NCBI RefSeq assembly: GCF_900156265.1
Contig: NZ_FTNE01000002.1
Span: 164,813 to 228,812 of the forward strand
DNA length: 64,000 nt
DNA from: Acidiphilium rubrum
GTDB lineage: Bacteria > Pseudomonadota > Alphaproteobacteria > Acetobacterales > Acetobacteraceae
Direction: 5' to 3'
Part shown: one piece after another, positions 8,017 through 63,981 of the stretch
Numbering within the stretch: the first letter of the stretch is position 1
How the letters are laid out: each line of letters begins with the position of its first letter
Position numbers and translations under genes: made by a program
The notes under the pieces: generated by a model
What the model saw: the letters and a program-made list of their open reading frames with translations, nothing else
Databases searched by the model: none
What the model was told of the DNA's origin: nothing

Positions 8017-11000
8017 TCACACAAACCGGCGCAGGTCGAGTGTGCTGGGATGTTCGAGGCTGGTGCTGGGGGTTGCGGGGTCGACCGGTCCTGGTGTGTG
8101 GCCGAAGGCGAAGAAGCGGGAGCGGCGACGGGCTTCCGCTTCGTTCGCGTTGACCGGAAACGTCTCGTAGCCGCGGCCGCCGGGGTGGATGGTGTGGTGG
8201 GTCATGCCGCCGAGCGCGCGGGCGGACCAGCGGTCGATCACGTCGAACACGAGCGGCGTTTGGGGCGGGATGAGCGGGTGCAGCGAGGAGGGCGGCGACC
8301 ATGCCTTGAAGCGGACGCCGGCGATGAAGCCGCCGACCGCGCCGGTGGGCGTGAGCGGCACGGTGATGCCGTTGCAGGTCAGGGCGAAGCGTTCATCGAC
8401 CCAGCCGGAGACCGCGATCTGCACGCGTTCCACCGCGCTATCGACGTAGCGGGCGGTGCCGCCGATGGTTTGTTCCTCGCCCAGCACGTGCCAGGGCTCC
8501 AGCGCGTGGCGTAGTTCGAGTTCCATGCCGGCGACGGTGACGGCGCCGAATTTCGGGAAACGGAACTCCTGATGCGGCACGAACCAGGCCGGGTCGATCG
8601 GGAAGCCGCGGGCGGCCAGCTCCTCGAGCGCGTCGCGCAGATCAGCGGCCACGTAATGCGGGAGCATGAACTGATCGTTCAGCCTTGTGCCCCAGCGGAT
8701 CAGCCGGCGCTCGTAGGGGGTCTGCCAGAAGGCGGCGACGCAGGCGCGCATCAGCAGGGCCTGTGCGACCGACATGCGCGCATCCGGCGGCATTTCGAAG
8801 GCGCGGAATTCGACCAGGCCGCGCCGGCCGGAGGCGGAACCGGGGGCGTAGAGCTTGTCGATGCAGAATTCGGTGCGATGGCCGTTGCCGGTCATGTCGG
8901 TCAGGATGTTGCGGAGCAGCCGGTCGATGATCCAGGGCGGGGTTTCGGTGCCGGGCTTGATCTGGCGGAAGGCGGTTTCGAGTTCGAGCAGCGCGTCCTC
9001 CCGCGCCTCGTCGATGCGGGGGTGCTGGCTGGAGGGGCCGATGAACAGGCCGGAGAACAAATACGACAGGCTCGGGTGATTGTGCCAGAATCCGAGCAGG
9101 GATTTCAGCAGATCGGGGCGGCGGAGGAAGGGGCTGTCGGTCGCTTCGGCCGCGCCCATCACGACGTGATTGCCGCCGCCGGTGCCGACGTGGCGGCCAT
9201 CGAGCATGAATTTCTCGGCGGCGAGGCCGGTTTCGCGCGCGAGTTGGTAGAGTTGCAGGGTGCGGCCGACGTGCTCGGCCCAGGTGGCGGCGGGCGGCAG
9301 ATTGACCTCGATCACACCGGGGTCGGGGGTGACGGAAAAGCTCAGCAGGCGCGGATCGTCGGGCGGCTGGTAGCCTTCCAGGAAAATCTTGCGGCTTTGC
9401 ATGGCAGCGACGCGTTCGATCGCCGCGACGAGGGTGAGGAAATCCTCGACCTCGTAGAGCGGTGGCAGAAACACATGCAGCATGCCGCCGCGCGCCTCGA
9501 CCGCCAGGGCGGTGCGGACGATGCCGGGCGCTTCGCCCAGCAATTTTGCGCCCGAAGTACCGGCGCGTTGGGCGGCGACGCGGCCGTTGGGTGGGACGAA
9601 TTCGCGCAGGGCGGCGGCACTCGGCAATGCTTCGTGCGGGGCGAACGGATCGGGCGGGGAGTCGATTTCGGTGGCGGCGGGGTCTTCCCAGGGCAGGCTG
9701 TCGAGCGGCAGGCGCAGCCCGATCGGTGAATCGCCGGGCACCAGCACCAGGTCGCCGCCGCGAAAATTCCAGCGCGCCGATTGCCATTGGCGCCCCGCGT
9801 CATCGGGCACCCGGCGCAGCGGCAGCACGCTGCCGGCGGATTGGCCGAGGTCGCCGGCGAACAGGCGGGCGAGGCGGGCGCGCTCGATCGGGTCGGTAAT
9901 CTTGCTCGCCTCGGCGCGGACGTTGGCCGGCAGGCGGGATTCGCGCCAGAGATAGTAATGCACATCCTCATAGGCCGGCATCACCAGGGCGGGGTCGATG
10001 TGCAGCGTCTCGGCCAGGGCGGCGCAGAAGCGCGCGGCATCGTCGGCGGTTGCGGTGTCGGTGTCGTCATCGCTCGCGAGCCACGCCTGATCCTGCCAGA
10101 CCGGCTCGCCATCGGCCCGCCAATAGGCGTGCAGCGCCCAGCGCGGCAATTGCTCGCCGGGGTATAATTTGCCCTGGGTGTATTGCAGCGCGGCGCCCGG
10201 TGCCCAGGCCGGTGCCAGCCGGCGGAGCAGCCGGCCGGCCATGGTGCGCTTGGTCGGGCCGAGTGCGTCGATATTCCATTCCGGCGCATCGATATCGGTG
10301 GCCGACACAAAGGTCGGCTCGCCGCCCATGGTCAGCCGCACGTCGCCGACCAGCAGCGCGGCATCGACCCGCGCGCCGGTTGCGAGAATATCCTGCCACA
10401 CCGCCTCGCTATAGGGTTTGGTCACGCGCGGCGTTTGTTCGATGCGGCGGATTTCCATCGAGAAATCGAAATCGACGCCACTGGGCTCGACCCCGCCGGA
10501 AATCGGTGCCGCCGAAATCGGGTCCGGGCTTGCCGCCAGCGGAATATGACCCTCGCCGGTCAGCAGGCCGGAGGTGGCATCGAGCCCGATCCAGCCGGCG
10601 CCGGGGAGATAGACCTCGGCCCAGGCGTGCAGATCGGTGAAATCCTGGGTCGGGCCGGCCGGGCCTTCGACCGGCTTCACATCGGCGACCAGCTGGATCA
10701 GGTAGCCGGAACAGAACCGGGCGGCGAAGCCCAGATGTCGCAGCAGATGCACCAGCAGCCAGGCGGAATCGCGGCAGGACCCCCTGCCCTCGCCCAGCGT
10801 GTGGTCCGGCGCCCAGACGCCCGGCTCCATCCGCACCACATAGGCGACGCGCGACTGCACCAAAGCGTTGAGGGCGACCAGCTTGTTGACCGTGGTCGCC
10901 TCGATCGCGCGTCCCTGTTCGATCAGCGCCGCAAGCAGCGGTCCCGGTGCCTCGGTGCGGCGGAACGGGGCCAATTCCTGCTCCAGCACCGGGTCGTAGG

Positions 11001-11313
11001 TGAACGGCCAGGTTTCCGCCTCGGGCTCGAGGAAGAAATCGAACGGGTTGATCGTCGCCATATCCGCGATCAGATCGACCGTGACGACGAACGAGGTCAC
11101 GGGGTCGGGGAACACCACGCGCGCGAGGAAATTGCCTTGCGGGTCCTGCAGCCAGTTCAGGAAATGCGGCTTCGGCTCGACCTTGAGCGTGTAGGCCAGG
11201 ATGGGCGTGCGCGTGTAGGGCGCCGGGCGCAGCCGGATGGTCTGCGGCCCGAGGCGGATCGGCCGATCGTACTGGTAGCTGGTGCGGTGGGTCAGCGCGA
11301 CATGGATCGACAT
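8017..11313 (-). CDS. transglutaminase-like protein with DUF2126 domain
   Basis: The protein is about 1098 residues. The N-terminal third is a bacterial transglutaminase-like unit: a beta-rich N domain (1-100), then a papain-like core with C180 in GRGSCRDSAWLL, H229 in LHAWAEVYLPGAGW and D245 in GLDATSG, a complete triad. The large C-terminal part is DUF2126, of unknown function. Related proteins occur with circularly permuted ATP-grasp and alpha-E genes in predicted peptide-modification operons. No signal peptide is visible. ATG 11313 is preferred over an upstream start at 11328, since SIHVALTHRTSYQYDR is the normal N-terminus. A second transglutaminase gene lies upstream, separated by a twin-hairpin repeat. 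Confidence 0.93.
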   Translation of the reverse strand: MSIHVALTHRTSYQYDRPIRLGPQTIRLRPAPYTRTPILAYTLKVEPKPHFLNWLQDPQGNFLARVVFPDPVTSFVVTVDLIADMATINPFDFFLEPEAETWPFTYDPVLEQELAPFRRTEAPGPLLAALIEQGRAIEATTVNKLVALNALVQSRVAYVVRMEPGVWAPDHTLGEGRGSCRDSAWLLVHLLRHLGFAARFCSGYLIQLVADVKPVEGPAGPTQDFTDLHAWAEVYLPGAGWIGLDATSGLLTGEGHIPLAASPDPISAAPISGGVEPSGVDFDFSMEIRRIEQTPRVTKPYSEAVWQDILATGARVDAALLVGDVRLTMGGEPTFVSATDIDAPEWNIDALGPTKRTMAGRLLRRLAPAWAPGAALQYTQGKLYPGEQLPRWALHAYWRADGEPVWQDQAWLASDDDTDTATADDAARFCAALAETLHIDPALVMPAYEDVHYYLWRESRLPANVRAEASKITDPIERARLARLFAGDLGQSAGSVLPLRRVPDDAGRQWQSARWNFRGGDLVLVPGDSPIGLRLPLDSLPWEDPAATEIDSPPDPFAPHEALPSAAALREFVPPNGRVAAQRAGTSGAKLLGEAPGIVRTALAVEARGGMLHVFLPPLYEVEDFLTLVAAIERVAAMQSRKIFLEGYQPPDDPRLLSFSVTPDPGVIEVNLPPAATWAEHVGRTLQLYQLARETGLAAEKFMLDGRHVGTGGGNHVVMGAAEATDSPFLRRPDLLKSLLGFWHNHPSLSYLFSGLFIGPSSQHPRIDEAREDALLELETAFRQIKPGTETPPWIIDRLLRNILTDMTGNGHRTEFCIDKLYAPGSASGRRGLVEFRAFEMPPDARMSVAQALLMRACVAAFWQTPYERRLIRWGTRLNDQFMLPHYVAADLRDALEELAARGFPIDPAWFVPHQEFRFPKFGAVTVAGMELELRHALEPWHVLGEEQTIGGTARYVDSAVERVQIAVSGWVDERFALTCNGITVPLTPTGAVGGFIAGVRFKAWSPPSSLHPLIPPQTPLVFDVIDRWSARALGGMTHHTIHPGGRGYETFPVNANEAEARRRSRFFAFGHTPGPVDPATPSTSLEHPSTLDLRRFV

Positions 11314-11433
11314 AAGGGTCCTTCGCAACGCAAGGGGATCGGGAGTTCCTGATTTATCGCATGGCGCATTGCGGTACGCCTGACAATCCGAGAGCTGGTG
11401 CCGATGGGGCCGAGATGAGCAAGGGAAAGGAAG

Positions 11434-11560
11434 GTCTTCTTTTTTGTGAACAAAAAAGAAGCAAAAAAAACTTCGCTAATCTGGGCCCGTGCCCGCCAAA
11501 ACGCCCATACCCCAGAGTCAGAAAGTTTTTTGCTTCTTTTTTACAAAAAAGAAGCGCTTT
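11434..11560. repeat. twin A/T-hairpin repeat, copy 1
   Basis: Two hairpins in inverted orientation bracket a GC-rich middle. Hairpin 1 is 11436-11461 (CTTCTTTTTTG/CAAAAAAGAAG, TGAA loop); hairpin 2 is 11532-11555. The whole unit is close to one long imperfect palindrome. Close copies occur at 24935, 53491 and 63846. It separates two transglutaminase genes. Confidence 0.85.
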
Positions 11561-11573
11561 CCTATGTTTCACG

Positions 11574-12440
11574 CTAAGGCTCTGCCGGTGCCAACACGAC
11601 GCTCACCTTGAGCGTATGCCGCCGCCCGCCGAGAATGATCCCGCAGGTCGGGCTGACATCGGTGAAGTCGCGGCCCCAGGCGAGGGTCACGTGTTCGTCG
11701 GACACGATCAGATCGTTGGTCGGGTCGAAATCCACCCAGCCGTGCCGCCAGCCGAGCCAGACCGAAACCCAGGCGTGGGTCTGCTCGGCGCCGGAATAGG
11801 CGGTCTCGCCGCCCACGATCTGGCTGCGCAGATAACCCGATATGTAGCGCGCCGGCAGCTTCAGCGCGCGCAGGCTGGCCAGCATCGCGTGGCTGTAATC
11901 CTGGCAGACGCCCTCACGCCGCGCCAACGCGGCCGGGCCGGTGGTCGTTGTCGTGGTCGAGCCGGGGCGATAGCGGAAACGCGCGTAGAGATCGCGCATC
12001 ATCGCCGTGGTCGCCTCCATCATGTCGGCGCCGGGGGTGAAATGGCTGTGGGCATAGGCCAGCACCGCATCATCCGTGCCGGTCAGTTTGGTCGGCAGCC
12101 GGAATTCGGCGATTCCGGCCGCGCTCGCCGCCGCCGCCGCCACCGCCTCCCACGTGATGCCGGCATGAGCGATCGGCTGCGGTGGTGTCACATCTATGTC
12201 GGCCTCGAGCGTGGCGATGAATTCATCATGCGGCAGATCGAGCTCGACCGAGGTGATATGGTTGCCGAAATAATCGACCTCGTCCCACCGGCTCGACGGT
12301 GCCGGCTCGATTGCCAGCGTGGCCGCTGCCAGCACCTGGCCCGGTCGCACCCGCGGCAGCAGGTGCAGAAAATGCCGCGCGCGGATCGCCGGTGTCTGGT
12401 ACGTGTAGGTGGTGCGATGGGTCAGCCGGTAGCGGATCAT
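11574..12440 (-). CDS. transglutaminase-like family protein
   Basis: The 288-residue protein has the bacterial transglutaminase N-terminal beta domain (YRLTHRTTYTYQTPAIRARH at the start) followed by the cysteine-protease-like core with C179 in REGVCQDYSHAML, H222 in QTHAWVSVWLG and D239 in WVDFDPTND. All three triad residues are present. Such domains act as transglutaminases or, more often in bacteria, as peptidases; the substrate is unknown. No export signal is visible. It is divergently oriented to the transglutaminase gene at 12625, with 184 bp between the starts. Confidence 0.92.
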   Translation of the reverse strand: MIRYRLTHRTTYTYQTPAIRARHFLHLLPRVRPGQVLAAATLAIEPAPSSRWDEVDYFGNHITSVELDLPHDEFIATLEADIDVTPPQPIAHAGITWEAVAAAAASAAGIAEFRLPTKLTGTDDAVLAYAHSHFTPGADMMEATTAMMRDLYARFRYRPGSTTTTTTGPAALARREGVCQDYSHAMLASLRALKLPARYISGYLRSQIVGGETAYSGAEQTHAWVSVWLGWRHGWVDFDPTNDLIVSDEHVTLAWGRDFTDVSPTCGIILGGRRHTLKVSVVLAPAEP

Positions 12441-12624
12441 TCAACTCGTCCAGACGATTCGTTTGATGACAGTATCATTGCGTCCGGCCTGCCGATAGCC
12501 GAATTTTACCGCCGATTCCGGTGGAAACCCGCACCGTAGCGCCACATATACCGTGCTGGCGTAACCGGCAGGACCCCATGCAGACGACCCTTACCCGACC
12601 CATGATCAGGGGAACCGGCGCATC

Positions 12625-13599
12625 ATGTGCCACGATCGTGCGACGCGACGGCGCACGGTACGGTCGCGCCTGATCTTGCCCGTTCTCGAAGTTCGCCACA
12701 TCACCACCTATCGCTACCGCCAGCCGGTCGCGCTGGGCGAACACCGCATGATGTTTCGCCCGCGCGAAGGCCATGATCAGCGCGTTCTGAATGCCAACCT
12801 CATCATCAACCCCGCGCCGATCCGCCAGCGCTGGATGCTCGATGTGTTCGGCAATCACGTGGGTTATGCAAGCTTCGGGGCCCGCACCACCGAATTATGC
12901 TTCGACAGCTCCGTGACGCTGCAACACAACCCGAGCCACGCCGAAGACGGCACGCTGCCGGACCTGACCCTCGAAGACTACGCGCTCACCTACCCCTTCA
13001 CCTACGGCGGCGATGAAATGCCGGACCTGATGCGCCTGATCGAGCGGCATAACCGCGACCCGCATCACGAGGTCGATCGCTGGGCGCGTCGCTTCCTCTC
13101 ACCGAACGGGCCGACCAGCACCAGCGCGCTGCTGCGCGGCATCAACCAGGCGATCTGGCAAGGGTTCACCTACGTTGCGCGCGAGGAAAAAGGCCTGCAG
13201 GAACCGACCACCACGCTGAAACTCGGCAGCGGCAGCTGCCGCGACTTCGCCCTGCTGATGATGGAAGCGGTGCGCGCGCTCGGCCTCGCTGCCCGCTTCG
13301 TATCGGGCTACCTGCACGTGCCCGCCCGCGGCAATCGCTCCAACATCGGCGGTGGCGCCACCCACGCCTGGCTCCAGGTGTTCCTGCCCGGCGCCGGCTG
13401 GGTTGAATTCGATCCGACCAACGGCATCGTCGGCAATCGCGATCTGATCCGCGTTGCCGTCGTCCGCGAGCCCGCACAGGCCGTGCCGCTCTCAGGCACC
13501 TGGGTCGGCGCACCGTCCGATCACCTCGCCATGAACGTCGCCGTGACCGTCACCAGAACCGACCTGCCGCCCTCCGATCCAAGCCCGCAGCCTCGTTGA
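12625..13599 (+). CDS. transglutaminase-like family protein
   Basis: The protein is 324 residues. A beta-rich N domain (EVRHITTYRYRQPVALGEHR at 22-41) precedes a core with an intact triad: C205 in GSGSCRDFALL, H247 in ATHAWLQVFLPGAGW and D263 in EFDPTNG. The core closely resembles that of the neighbour at 11574, so the group probably expanded by duplication. The ATG at 12625 gives about 17 residues unlike the family N-terminus; TTG at 12676 may be the true start. The next transglutaminase gene begins 27 bp after the stop, so they likely share a transcript. Confidence 0.91.
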   Translation: MCHDRATRRRTVRSRLILPVLEVRHITTYRYRQPVALGEHRMMFRPREGHDQRVLNANLIINPAPIRQRWMLDVFGNHVGYASFGARTTELCFDSSVTLQHNPSHAEDGTLPDLTLEDYALTYPFTYGGDEMPDLMRLIERHNRDPHHEVDRWARRFLSPNGPTSTSALLRGINQAIWQGFTYVAREEKGLQEPTTTLKLGSGSCRDFALLMMEAVRALGLAARFVSGYLHVPARGNRSNIGGGATHAWLQVFLPGAGWVEFDPTNGIVGNRDLIRVAVVREPAQAVPLSGTWVGAPSDHLAMNVAVTVTRTDLPPSDPSPQPR

Positions 13600-13626
13600 C
13601 CCCATTTCGCAAGGACCTACTCCATC

Positions 13627-14436
13627 ATGAAAATTCGCGCAGGCTTTGAAATCTCGTTCGACTGCCCCACCCCGATCCCGATGCTGCTGATGCTGAACCT
13701 GCACCCCTCGCGCGAGCCGGACCTACTGACCGAGAGCCGCCTGATGCTCGACCCGCCCGTACCCGTCACCCACTACATCGACGGGTTCGGCAATTGCTGC
13801 AGCCGGATCGTCGCCATGCCGGGCCGCCAGACCATGCGCAGCGACTTCCTGATCCGCGACTACGGCGACCCCGATGTGCAGCCCCACGGCGCGCCGCAAA
13901 TCGCCGTCGAACACCTGCCGACCGATATCCTGGTGTTCCTGCTGGGCAGCCGCTACTGCGAAACCGACCGGCTCTCGGATACCGCGATATCACTGTTCGG
14001 CCACGTCGAACCCGGATGGTCACGCGTGCAGGCGATCTGCGAATACGTCCATAACCGGATCACCTTCGATTATCAGAGCGCCCGCCCGACCAAAACCGCC
14101 TGGGACGCCTTCATGGAACAACGCGGCGTCTGCCGCGACTTCGCCCACCTCGCCATCACGTTCTGCCGCTGCATGAACATCCCCGCCCGCTACTGCACCG
14201 GCTACCTCGGCGATATCGGCGTACCACTCTCGCCCGACCCGATGGACTTCAGCGGCTGGTTCGACGTCTACCTCGGCGGTCGCTGGTACACCTGCGACGC
14301 CCGCCACAACCACCCCCGCATCGGCCGCATCCTGATGGCCCGCGGCCGCGACGCCACCGACGTCGCCATCACCACCACCTTCGGCCAATGCACCCTGACC
14401 GGCTTCACAGTCGTAACCGACGAAGTGGCGTCGTGA
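13627..14436 (+). CDS. transglutaminase-like family protein lacking the usual triad His
   Basis: The 269-residue protein has the same fold order as its neighbours, with C169 in RGVCRDFAHLAITFC and D224 in WYTCDARHN. At the position where the other three have His-Ala-Trp, this one reads Ser209-Gly210-Trp211 (DFSGWFDVYLGG). Either the subfamily uses another residue or the protein is not a typical triad enzyme. H227 and H229 just after D224 are nearby candidates. It follows the preceding gene by 27 bp. The large palindrome element begins 6 bp after its stop. Confidence 0.88.
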   Translation: MKIRAGFEISFDCPTPIPMLLMLNLHPSREPDLLTESRLMLDPPVPVTHYIDGFGNCCSRIVAMPGRQTMRSDFLIRDYGDPDVQPHGAPQIAVEHLPTDILVFLLGSRYCETDRLSDTAISLFGHVEPGWSRVQAICEYVHNRITFDYQSARPTKTAWDAFMEQRGVCRDFAHLAITFCRCMNIPARYCTGYLGDIGVPLSPDPMDFSGWFDVYLGGRWYTCDARHNHPRIGRILMARGRDATDVAITTTFGQCTLTGFTVVTDEVAS

Positions 14437-14441
14437 TTTCG

Positions 14442-14674
14442 GGGGGTGGGACTTGGGTCAAAAAGGCCAGGGGCTCTGCCCCTGGACCCCGCTAAGGGCT
14501 AGCCCTTAGAACCCGCTAGTTTTAGGCAAGGGGAGGGCGCTGCCTCGGACTTTCAGCTGATCTGGCCTGGGTCGCCCTCCCCTTGCCTAAAACTAATGGA
14601 TTTTAAAGGCTCCGCCTTTAACGGGGGTCCAGGGGGCAGAGCCCCCTGGCCTTTTTGACCCAAGTCCCACCCCC
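14442..14674. repeat. 233-bp nested palindrome element, copy A
   Basis: Perfect 32-bp terminal inverted repeats (14442-14473 and 14643-14674) enclose a second perfect 23-bp inverted pair (14517-14539 and 14573-14595) and smaller hairpins, such as CCAGGGGC/GCCCCTGG near 14467-14485 and TTAAAGGC/GCCTTTAA near 14602-14620. It fills the convergent gap between a transglutaminase gene and serA, so it can act as a bidirectional terminator. Copy B at 22729 shares the inner part almost exactly, but its outer arms differ. Confidence 0.88.
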
Positions 14675-24776: not shown

Positions 24777-25154
24777 AACGCAGGCCTCGATCCAATGCCC
24801 AGCTCACGCCGGGTCGGTGATAGATAATACAAGATCAGCCGCGCTACGGACCCCGTGACGCGGTGTTGCGCCGCTATATCGCCAAATCCGCCGCGCGGGT
24901 CAAGCGCCCGGCGAAAAAGGGGTAAGGCAGGGCAGGAGTAAGGTCTTCTTTTTTGTGAACAAAAAAAGAAGCAAAAAAAACTTTATCAATCTGGGCCCGT
25001 GCCAGTGAAACCGCCCGTGCCCCAGATTCAGAAAGTTTTTTGCTTCTTTTTTTTCAAAAAAGAAGCGCTTCACTTCACCTTGCTTTTACCAGAATCGGCC
25101 TCGCCGTCGATGCGTGATAGACTACACGCTCAACCCCCGTCACAGGAGTTGCGC
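24777..25154. repeat. intergenic region containing twin A/T-hairpin repeat copy 2
   Basis: This 378-bp gap between divergent genes contains one full repeat at about 24935-25072: hairpin CTTCTTTTTTG/CAAAAAAAGAAG near 24943-24973 and the inverted hairpin GCTTCTTTTTTT/AAAAAAGAAGC near 25042-25066. The middle, CTGGGCCCGTGCCAGTGAAA onward, matches the copies at 53491 (inverted) and 63846. The rest is the rpmB leader and the 80-bp leader of the debranching-type gene. No gene is seen. Confidence 0.8.
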
Positions 25155-53490: not shown

Positions 53491-53620
53491 GCAAGCGAAA
53501 GACTTCTTTTTTGGAAAAAAGAAGCAAAAAACTTTTTGCCTCGGGGGCATGGGCGGTTTCACCGGCATGGGCCCAGACAAATAAAGTTTTTTTGCTTCTT
53601 TTTTTTCAAAAAAAGAAGTC
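53491..53620. repeat. twin A/T-hairpin repeat, copy 3 (inverted)
   Basis: Hairpins near 53502-53524 and 53594-53619 flank a middle that is the reverse complement of the middle of copies at 24935 and 63846 (GGGCCCATGCCGGTGAAACC when read on the reverse strand). It lies between divergent genes: the hydrolase and the methyltransferase. Confidence 0.85.
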
Positions 53621-63845: not shown

Positions 63846-63981
63846 CAGGAAGTGTCTTCTTTTTTGTGAACAAAAAAGAAGCAAAAAAAACTTTGTTAAT
63901 CTAGGCCCGTGCCGGTGAAACGGCCCGTGCCCCTGAATCAGAAAGTTCTTTGCTTCTTTTTTCCAAAAAAGAAGCCTTCCT
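63846..63981. repeat. twin A/T-hairpin repeat, copy 4
   Basis: Hairpins near 63856-63881 and 63950-63975 with the shared middle (CCCGTGCCGGTGAAACGGCC) make this closest to copy 2. It is the last feature before the window edge, upstream of copA. Confidence 0.85.

Follow-up and report, generated by a model that had tools for sequence, protein, structure and literature searches.

Why should four transglutaminase-like genes stand together in the genome of Acidiphilium rubrum, at a locus from which the ATP-grasp and alpha-E genes of related operons are missing? Operons of alpha-E, circularly permuted ATP-grasp, transglutaminase and DUF2126 genes were reportedly predicted by Iyer et al. in 2009 to be a peptide-ligase system (PMC3268129, as cited in PMC5666114 and PMC3597751). 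The quartet lies at positions 8017-14436 of a 64,000-nucleotide stretch of DNA (contig NZ_FTNE01000002.1, positions 164,813 to 228,812; hereafter the window), on a contig here called C39. The answer that we regard as likely is that it forms the transglutaminase/amidoligase half of this known system, parted by rearrangement from another half on contig C50, with a probable nitrogen role. The features of the quartet are the following.

8017..11328, minus strand: TG1, a transglutaminase-like domain with a Cys-His-Asp triad fused to DUF2126, a putative amidoligase (open reading frame, Pfam)
about 8020-10482, minus strand: DUF2126 part of TG1 (Pfam)
11574..12440, minus strand: TG2, Bact_transglu_N and Transglut_core, with C179/H222/D239 (open reading frame, Pfam)
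12441..12624, no strand: divergent intergenic region of 184 bp between TG2 and TG3 (between open reading frames)
12625..13599, plus strand: TG3, Bact_transglu_N and Transglut_core, with C205/H247/D263, first gene of the TG3-TG4 pair (open reading frame, Pfam)
13627..14436, plus strand: TG4, Transglut_core only, with C169, Ser209 and D224 (open reading frame, Pfam)

Open reading frames and Pfam matches agree with the four transglutaminase-core genes described in an earlier note on this DNA, and the catalytic residues named there proved correct in all four proteins, TG4 being without the catalytic His (residue numbers of TG1 start from the second start codon, Met6 of the long open reading frame). 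The Cys-His-Asp triad of PF01841 is present in TG1, TG2 and TG3. Bact_transglu_N and Transglut_core are matched by TG1 (2.7e-24 and 2.2e-16, with DUF2126 at E=0), TG2 (9.8e-20 and 1.8e-17) and TG3 (8.6e-23 and 3.4e-18); TG4 matches Transglut_core (5.5e-19), and Bact_transglu_N is absent from it. The first three genes are the whole-genome total for Bact_transglu_N, and the quartet provides four of the genome's five Transglut_core matches. TG1 and TG2 are co-directional, as are TG3 and TG4. The "two divergent pairs" of the note are two co-directional pairs facing apart across a single gap of 184 bp, in which the promoters of both transcripts are expected.

The missing partners were found by a whole-genome search for DUF403 and the circularly permuted ATP-grasp, which located both families on C50. 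An intact circularly permuted ATP-grasp gene (PF14403, 1.2e-158, over the cut-off) and a separate alpha-E (DUF403) gene (4.9e-81) are divergent there from a diverged ATP-grasp/alpha-E fusion gene. The separate and the fused alpha-E genes are the only two in the genome. The parts are thus not in one locus here, with the quartet on C39 and ATP-grasp and alpha-E on C50, and the absence of partners noted earlier holds for the locus and not for the genome. Because the partners are present in the same genome and are co-inherited with the quartet, the genes are best accounted for as the known system in split form, the interpretation that the note had attached beforehand to partners found elsewhere and inherited together. 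Its link to predicted peptide-ligase operons and its view of the four members as differentiated both stand; the free-standing multi-transglutaminase system that it had proposed very probably does not, and a false puzzle is removed.

Co-inheritance was assessed from a table of gene presence across 120 genomes of the order, of which 45 have DUF2126, 85 the separate, ATP-grasp-linked alpha-E, 42 the fusion, 42 TG2, 29 TG3 and 34 TG4. The fusion is present in all 42 genomes with TG2 and in none of the 78 without it. It likewise occurs in 42/45 genomes with DUF2126 and 0/75 without, every fusion genome of the sample having DUF2126. Alpha-E accompanies DUF2126 (45/45), TG4 (34/34) and TG3 (29/29) throughout. 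Fisher values of 3e-29 for DUF2126 with the fusion and 7e-7 for TG4 with alpha-E overstate the case, since the sampled genomes share ancestry and everything is lost from many of the small ones. Other combinations were also recorded. DUF2126-TG1 is present and the fusion and TG2 are absent in G004 (L087), G061 and G108. In G124 (L106) and G126 (L107), from the window's genus, the fusion and TG2 are present and the search returned zero TG1 matches. TG1-like cores without DUF2126, divergent from ATP-grasp/alpha-E, occur at L093:839-1816 and L094:3429-4574, in genomes without DUF2126.

The arrangement in relatives indicates how the split may have arisen. TG2 adjoins the fusion gene in 40/42 genomes, that of the window being one of the two exceptions, and the distance between DUF2126 and the fusion is at most 9 kb in 30 of the 42, some of the others being cut by contig ends. 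DUF2126, fusion, TG2, ATP-grasp and alpha-E all lie inside about 13 kb in G041 and G062, and by coordinates the parts share one locus likewise in G008, G027, G071 and G074. In genus g31 and two genomes of the window's genus, a TG2-fusion pair faces away from an ATP-grasp-alpha-E pair, as the genes do on C50, where only TG2 is missing. ATP-grasp, alpha-E, TG3 and TG4 occur together in one locus in Acidisphaera and G051; in Acidisphaera (L045), TG3 and TG4 directly follow ATP-grasp and alpha-E. On the simplest reading, TG2 moved away from the ATP-grasp/alpha-E locus to the side of TG1, and in most such genomes TG3-TG4 became neighbours of the two. A tree of the cores (72 rows) places TG1, TG3 and TG4 in well-supported clades. 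TG2 proper also forms a clade, with a few transglutaminases of ATP-grasp/alpha-E operons near it, and TG3 and TG4 of the window fall with their Acidisphaera counterparts. With four separate, old clades, an origin of the quartet by local duplication is rejected and separate arrival is favoured. The quartet is, as judged from the tree, an assembly of four old families, and TG3-TG4 is best read as a separate module beside the split known system.

Rearrangement could also have brought TG2-TG1 and TG3-TG4 together as accidental neighbours with no joint function. The pairs are separate in most relatives and apart in G131 of the same genus, which has the TG2-TG1 pair only and TG4 alone elsewhere, and a dispersed repeat sits between TG2 and TG1. 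However, four genomes retain the order, with protein identity as low as 72% for TG2, and each of the four families co-occurs with alpha-E. The complete quartet was found in 4 of the 13 genomes of the genus (G000, G120, G121 and G129). Because its order is conserved in the three other genomes, the quartet is not attributed to chance, and an accidental juxtaposition appears possible at most, and rather doubtful. The repeat is the following feature.

11431..11559, no strand: copy of a dispersed ~120-bp palindromic repeat between TG2 and TG1 (sequence comparison)

Copies of this element, whose ends are palindromic (CTTCTTTTTTG...CAAAAAAGAAGC), lie in the window at 11431-11559, 24945-25066, 53503-53619 and 63856-63975, and similar strings recur elsewhere in the genome. 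The genes flanking the quartet (purL, a glycosyltransferase gene, serA and a PhzF-family gene) are unrelated to it. Between TG4 and serA, which are convergent, lie two near-identical terminator-like hairpins on opposite strands, at 14465-14485 and 14629-14649 (CCAGGGG..CAGAG..CCCCTGGCCTTTTTGAC).

Two candidate ligases can be proposed for the system. One is at the quartet locus itself, since the DUF2126 part of TG1 is labelled in Pfam as a putative amidoligase; the profile (PF09899) is covered over its full length (1226 bits, positions 3-826 of 826). In comparisons aimed at a ligase fold like that of glutamine synthetase or GCS, the profile gave zero matches against the PDB up to E = 10, and hhalign found no match between DUF2126 and the genome's own GCS2 protein. 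An AlphaFold model of the domain, with only three sequences in the alignment, reached a pLDDT of 31.7, too low for use. A search of viral contigs found no DUF2126, and defence-system models gave zero matches to the seven proteins of the set. The other candidate is on C50. The ATP-grasp half of the fusion has lost several residues that are invariant in the separate ATP-grasp, e.g., K447 and D398/D399/K400, and the stretch around 447-460 (the Lys447 region) is deleted in this genome (fusion at L006:9973-12228) and in g31. This half is probably a pseudo-ATP-grasp, and the separate ATP-grasp and DUF2126 are therefore probably the active ligases. We infer that the gene products act jointly in amide-bond chemistry. 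The cytoplasmic ATP-grasp from C50 and the DUF2126 of TG1 would activate a carboxylate at the expense of ATP and form an amide bond on a Glu-rich peptide or a gamma-glutamyl type compound, with the alpha-E proteins as helical partners. TG1, TG2 and TG3, with their intact triads, would cleave or transfer those amide bonds, and TG4 would act as a non-canonical enzyme or as a binding partner of TG3.

The use of such a system is suggested by the genes that accompany TG3 and TG4. Acetobacteraceae and Rhizobiales have, in at least 13 loci, a gene of the N-formylglutamate amidohydrolase (FGase) family (PF05013, 3.2e-45) beside TG3/TG4; two distant Accumulibacter loci have one as well, and in G022 the gene is directly 3' of TG4 on the same strand. 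Because a genome contains about three such genes, this adjacency is unlikely to be due to chance, although five of the Rhizobiales loci are closely related to one another. Those five have a urate oxidase gene close by in 5/5 cases and an OHCU decarboxylase/HIUase gene in 4/5. In the window's genome, the orthologous FGase (50%) is not beside TG3-TG4 and ends a purine-degradation cluster on C72 (L098:7780-8535), together with XdhC, HIUase, urate oxidase, OHCU decarboxylase, guanine deaminase and the allantoinase PuuE. It is not HutG, scoring 40 bits where the cut-off is 279. At L053:10847-11227, TG4 is immediately followed by a gamma-glutamyl cyclotransferase-like (GGACT) gene, an arrangement common to L063 and L070, and a gamma-glutamyltranspeptidase-like gene is found near the C50 set.

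Equivalent genes have been placed under nitrogen control in other bacteria. In B. cenocepacia, genes for DUF404/407, DUF403, a transglutaminase and a large transglutaminase protein are activated by NtrC/sigma-54 and were 6- to 9-fold lower in nitrogen-limited cells of an ntrC mutant, where urease, xanthine dehydrogenase and urate oxidase genes fell with them (PMC5491218). In P. putida, nitrogen limitation raised PP_2686-2688 11- to 15-fold (first strain column), and these genes were assigned to NtrB/NtrC (PMC7801951); activation by NtrC/sigma-54 has been described for PP_2685-2688 (PMC7801951, PMC3325844). In marine metagenomes, Bact_transglu_N and DUF403/404/407 co-vary with urea domains (PMC3597751). 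Because TG3-TG4 travels with a purine-linked FGase-like gene and the equivalent operons are NtrC-controlled elsewhere, the system would most likely serve nitrogen scavenging or turnover. Part of the alpha-E/ATP-grasp/transglutaminase set is thereby tied to an FGase-like hydrolase, a purine-degradation cluster and nitrogen-starvation control.

The same neighbours have a second possible explanation, a nitrogen reserve: a gamma-glutamyl or isopeptide storage compound would be made by ATP-grasp and DUF2126 and broken down by the transglutaminase-like peptidases together with the FGase-like hydrolase. The FGase genes, the gamma-glutamyl cyclotransferase neighbour in three loci, the gamma-glutamyltranspeptidase-like gene near the C50 set and the induction by nitrogen starvation in other bacteria would all be compatible with it. 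Starvation induction fits scavenging better than storage, however, gene neighbours are hints only, and to our knowledge no polymer has been described for the system; we consider a reserve unlikely.

TG4 deserves separate attention as a transglutaminase fold without the catalytic His. Among 43 homologues, position 209 is Ser in 36, Ala in 7 and His in none, and C169 and D224 are invariant. Its nearest solved relative is 3ISR, a transglutaminase-like putative cysteine protease from Cytophaga hutchinsonii (sequence 9e-40), with a similar fold (TM 0.84; TG4 model pLDDT 87) but with His at the position of Ser209. An in-frame TGA noticed in three TG4 relatives was merely the terminal stop codon. TG4 may be a pseudoenzyme or may use other residues. 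Tentatively, it might represent a widespread Cys+Asp, never-His family (Alpha-, Beta- and Gammaproteobacteria, Acidobacteria), which with TG3 and the FGase-like enzyme would form a distinct purine-linked nitrogen-scavenging module. If so, its chemistry would be unlike that of known transglutaminases and cysteine peptidases.

Several points weigh against the quartet being half of a nitrogen-related, jointly acting system. Phylogeny confounds the co-inheritance: all parts are lost from the small acetic-acid genomes. TG3 and TG4 are also found without the DUF2126/fusion/TG2 part, so joint action with it is not required. Activities and substrates of the window's proteins are predictions, the nitrogen link comes from neighbour genes and other bacteria, and control by NtrC would be carried over from other species; a search for sigma-54 sites around the genes of the window and of C50, including 12441..12624, gave only weak matches inside coding sequence. 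We nevertheless prefer the split known system to four transglutaminase-like proteins forming a self-contained system, independent of ATP-grasp/alpha-E and with several activities on one substrate. The latter could draw on the order conserved in four genomes of the genus and on the transglutaminase half standing alone at its locus, but it is improbable with partners co-inherited in the same genome and a quartet that is patchy in the genus (4/13, with G131 as described).

The set can finally be compared with known systems. The Anbu operon of Pseudomonas, Yersinia and Hyphomicrobium has an ATP-grasp, an alpha-E and a transglutaminase-like protein in common with it; Anbu is absent here, and a DUF2126 fusion and several transglutaminase-like genes are found instead. 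The ATP-grasp of Yersinia has been shown to release phosphate from ATP (PMC6376114). Protein tagging followed by removal or degradation of tagged proteins by a proteasome-like peptidase, as proposed for that operon, is suggested by the shared partner families (PMC5666114, PMC6376114) but is very unlikely here, as the only PF00227 match in the genome is HslV, beside HslU, and Anbu was without peptidase activity in published tests (PMC6376114). Closer counterparts are B. cenocepacia I35_5080-5083, whose large transglutaminase protein is probably a DUF2126 fusion, and P. putida PP_2685-2688. Each is a single NtrC-activated cluster, whereas here the genes are split and a sigma-54 site was not found. 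With the operons of Iyer et al., the genome shares the same families (Bact_transglu_N with Transglut_core, DUF2126, CP_ATPgrasp and Alpha-E), co-inherited; it differs in having transglutaminase/DUF2126 and ATP-grasp/alpha-E on separate contigs, with the TG3-TG4 pair added to the former group. The quartet is best regarded as part of a known system of unsolved function, in rearranged form. The nitrogen ties described above, the probably dead ATP-grasp half and the transglutaminase without His offer a handle on the old question of what alpha-E/ATP-grasp/transglutaminase genes do in the very many bacteria that carry them.

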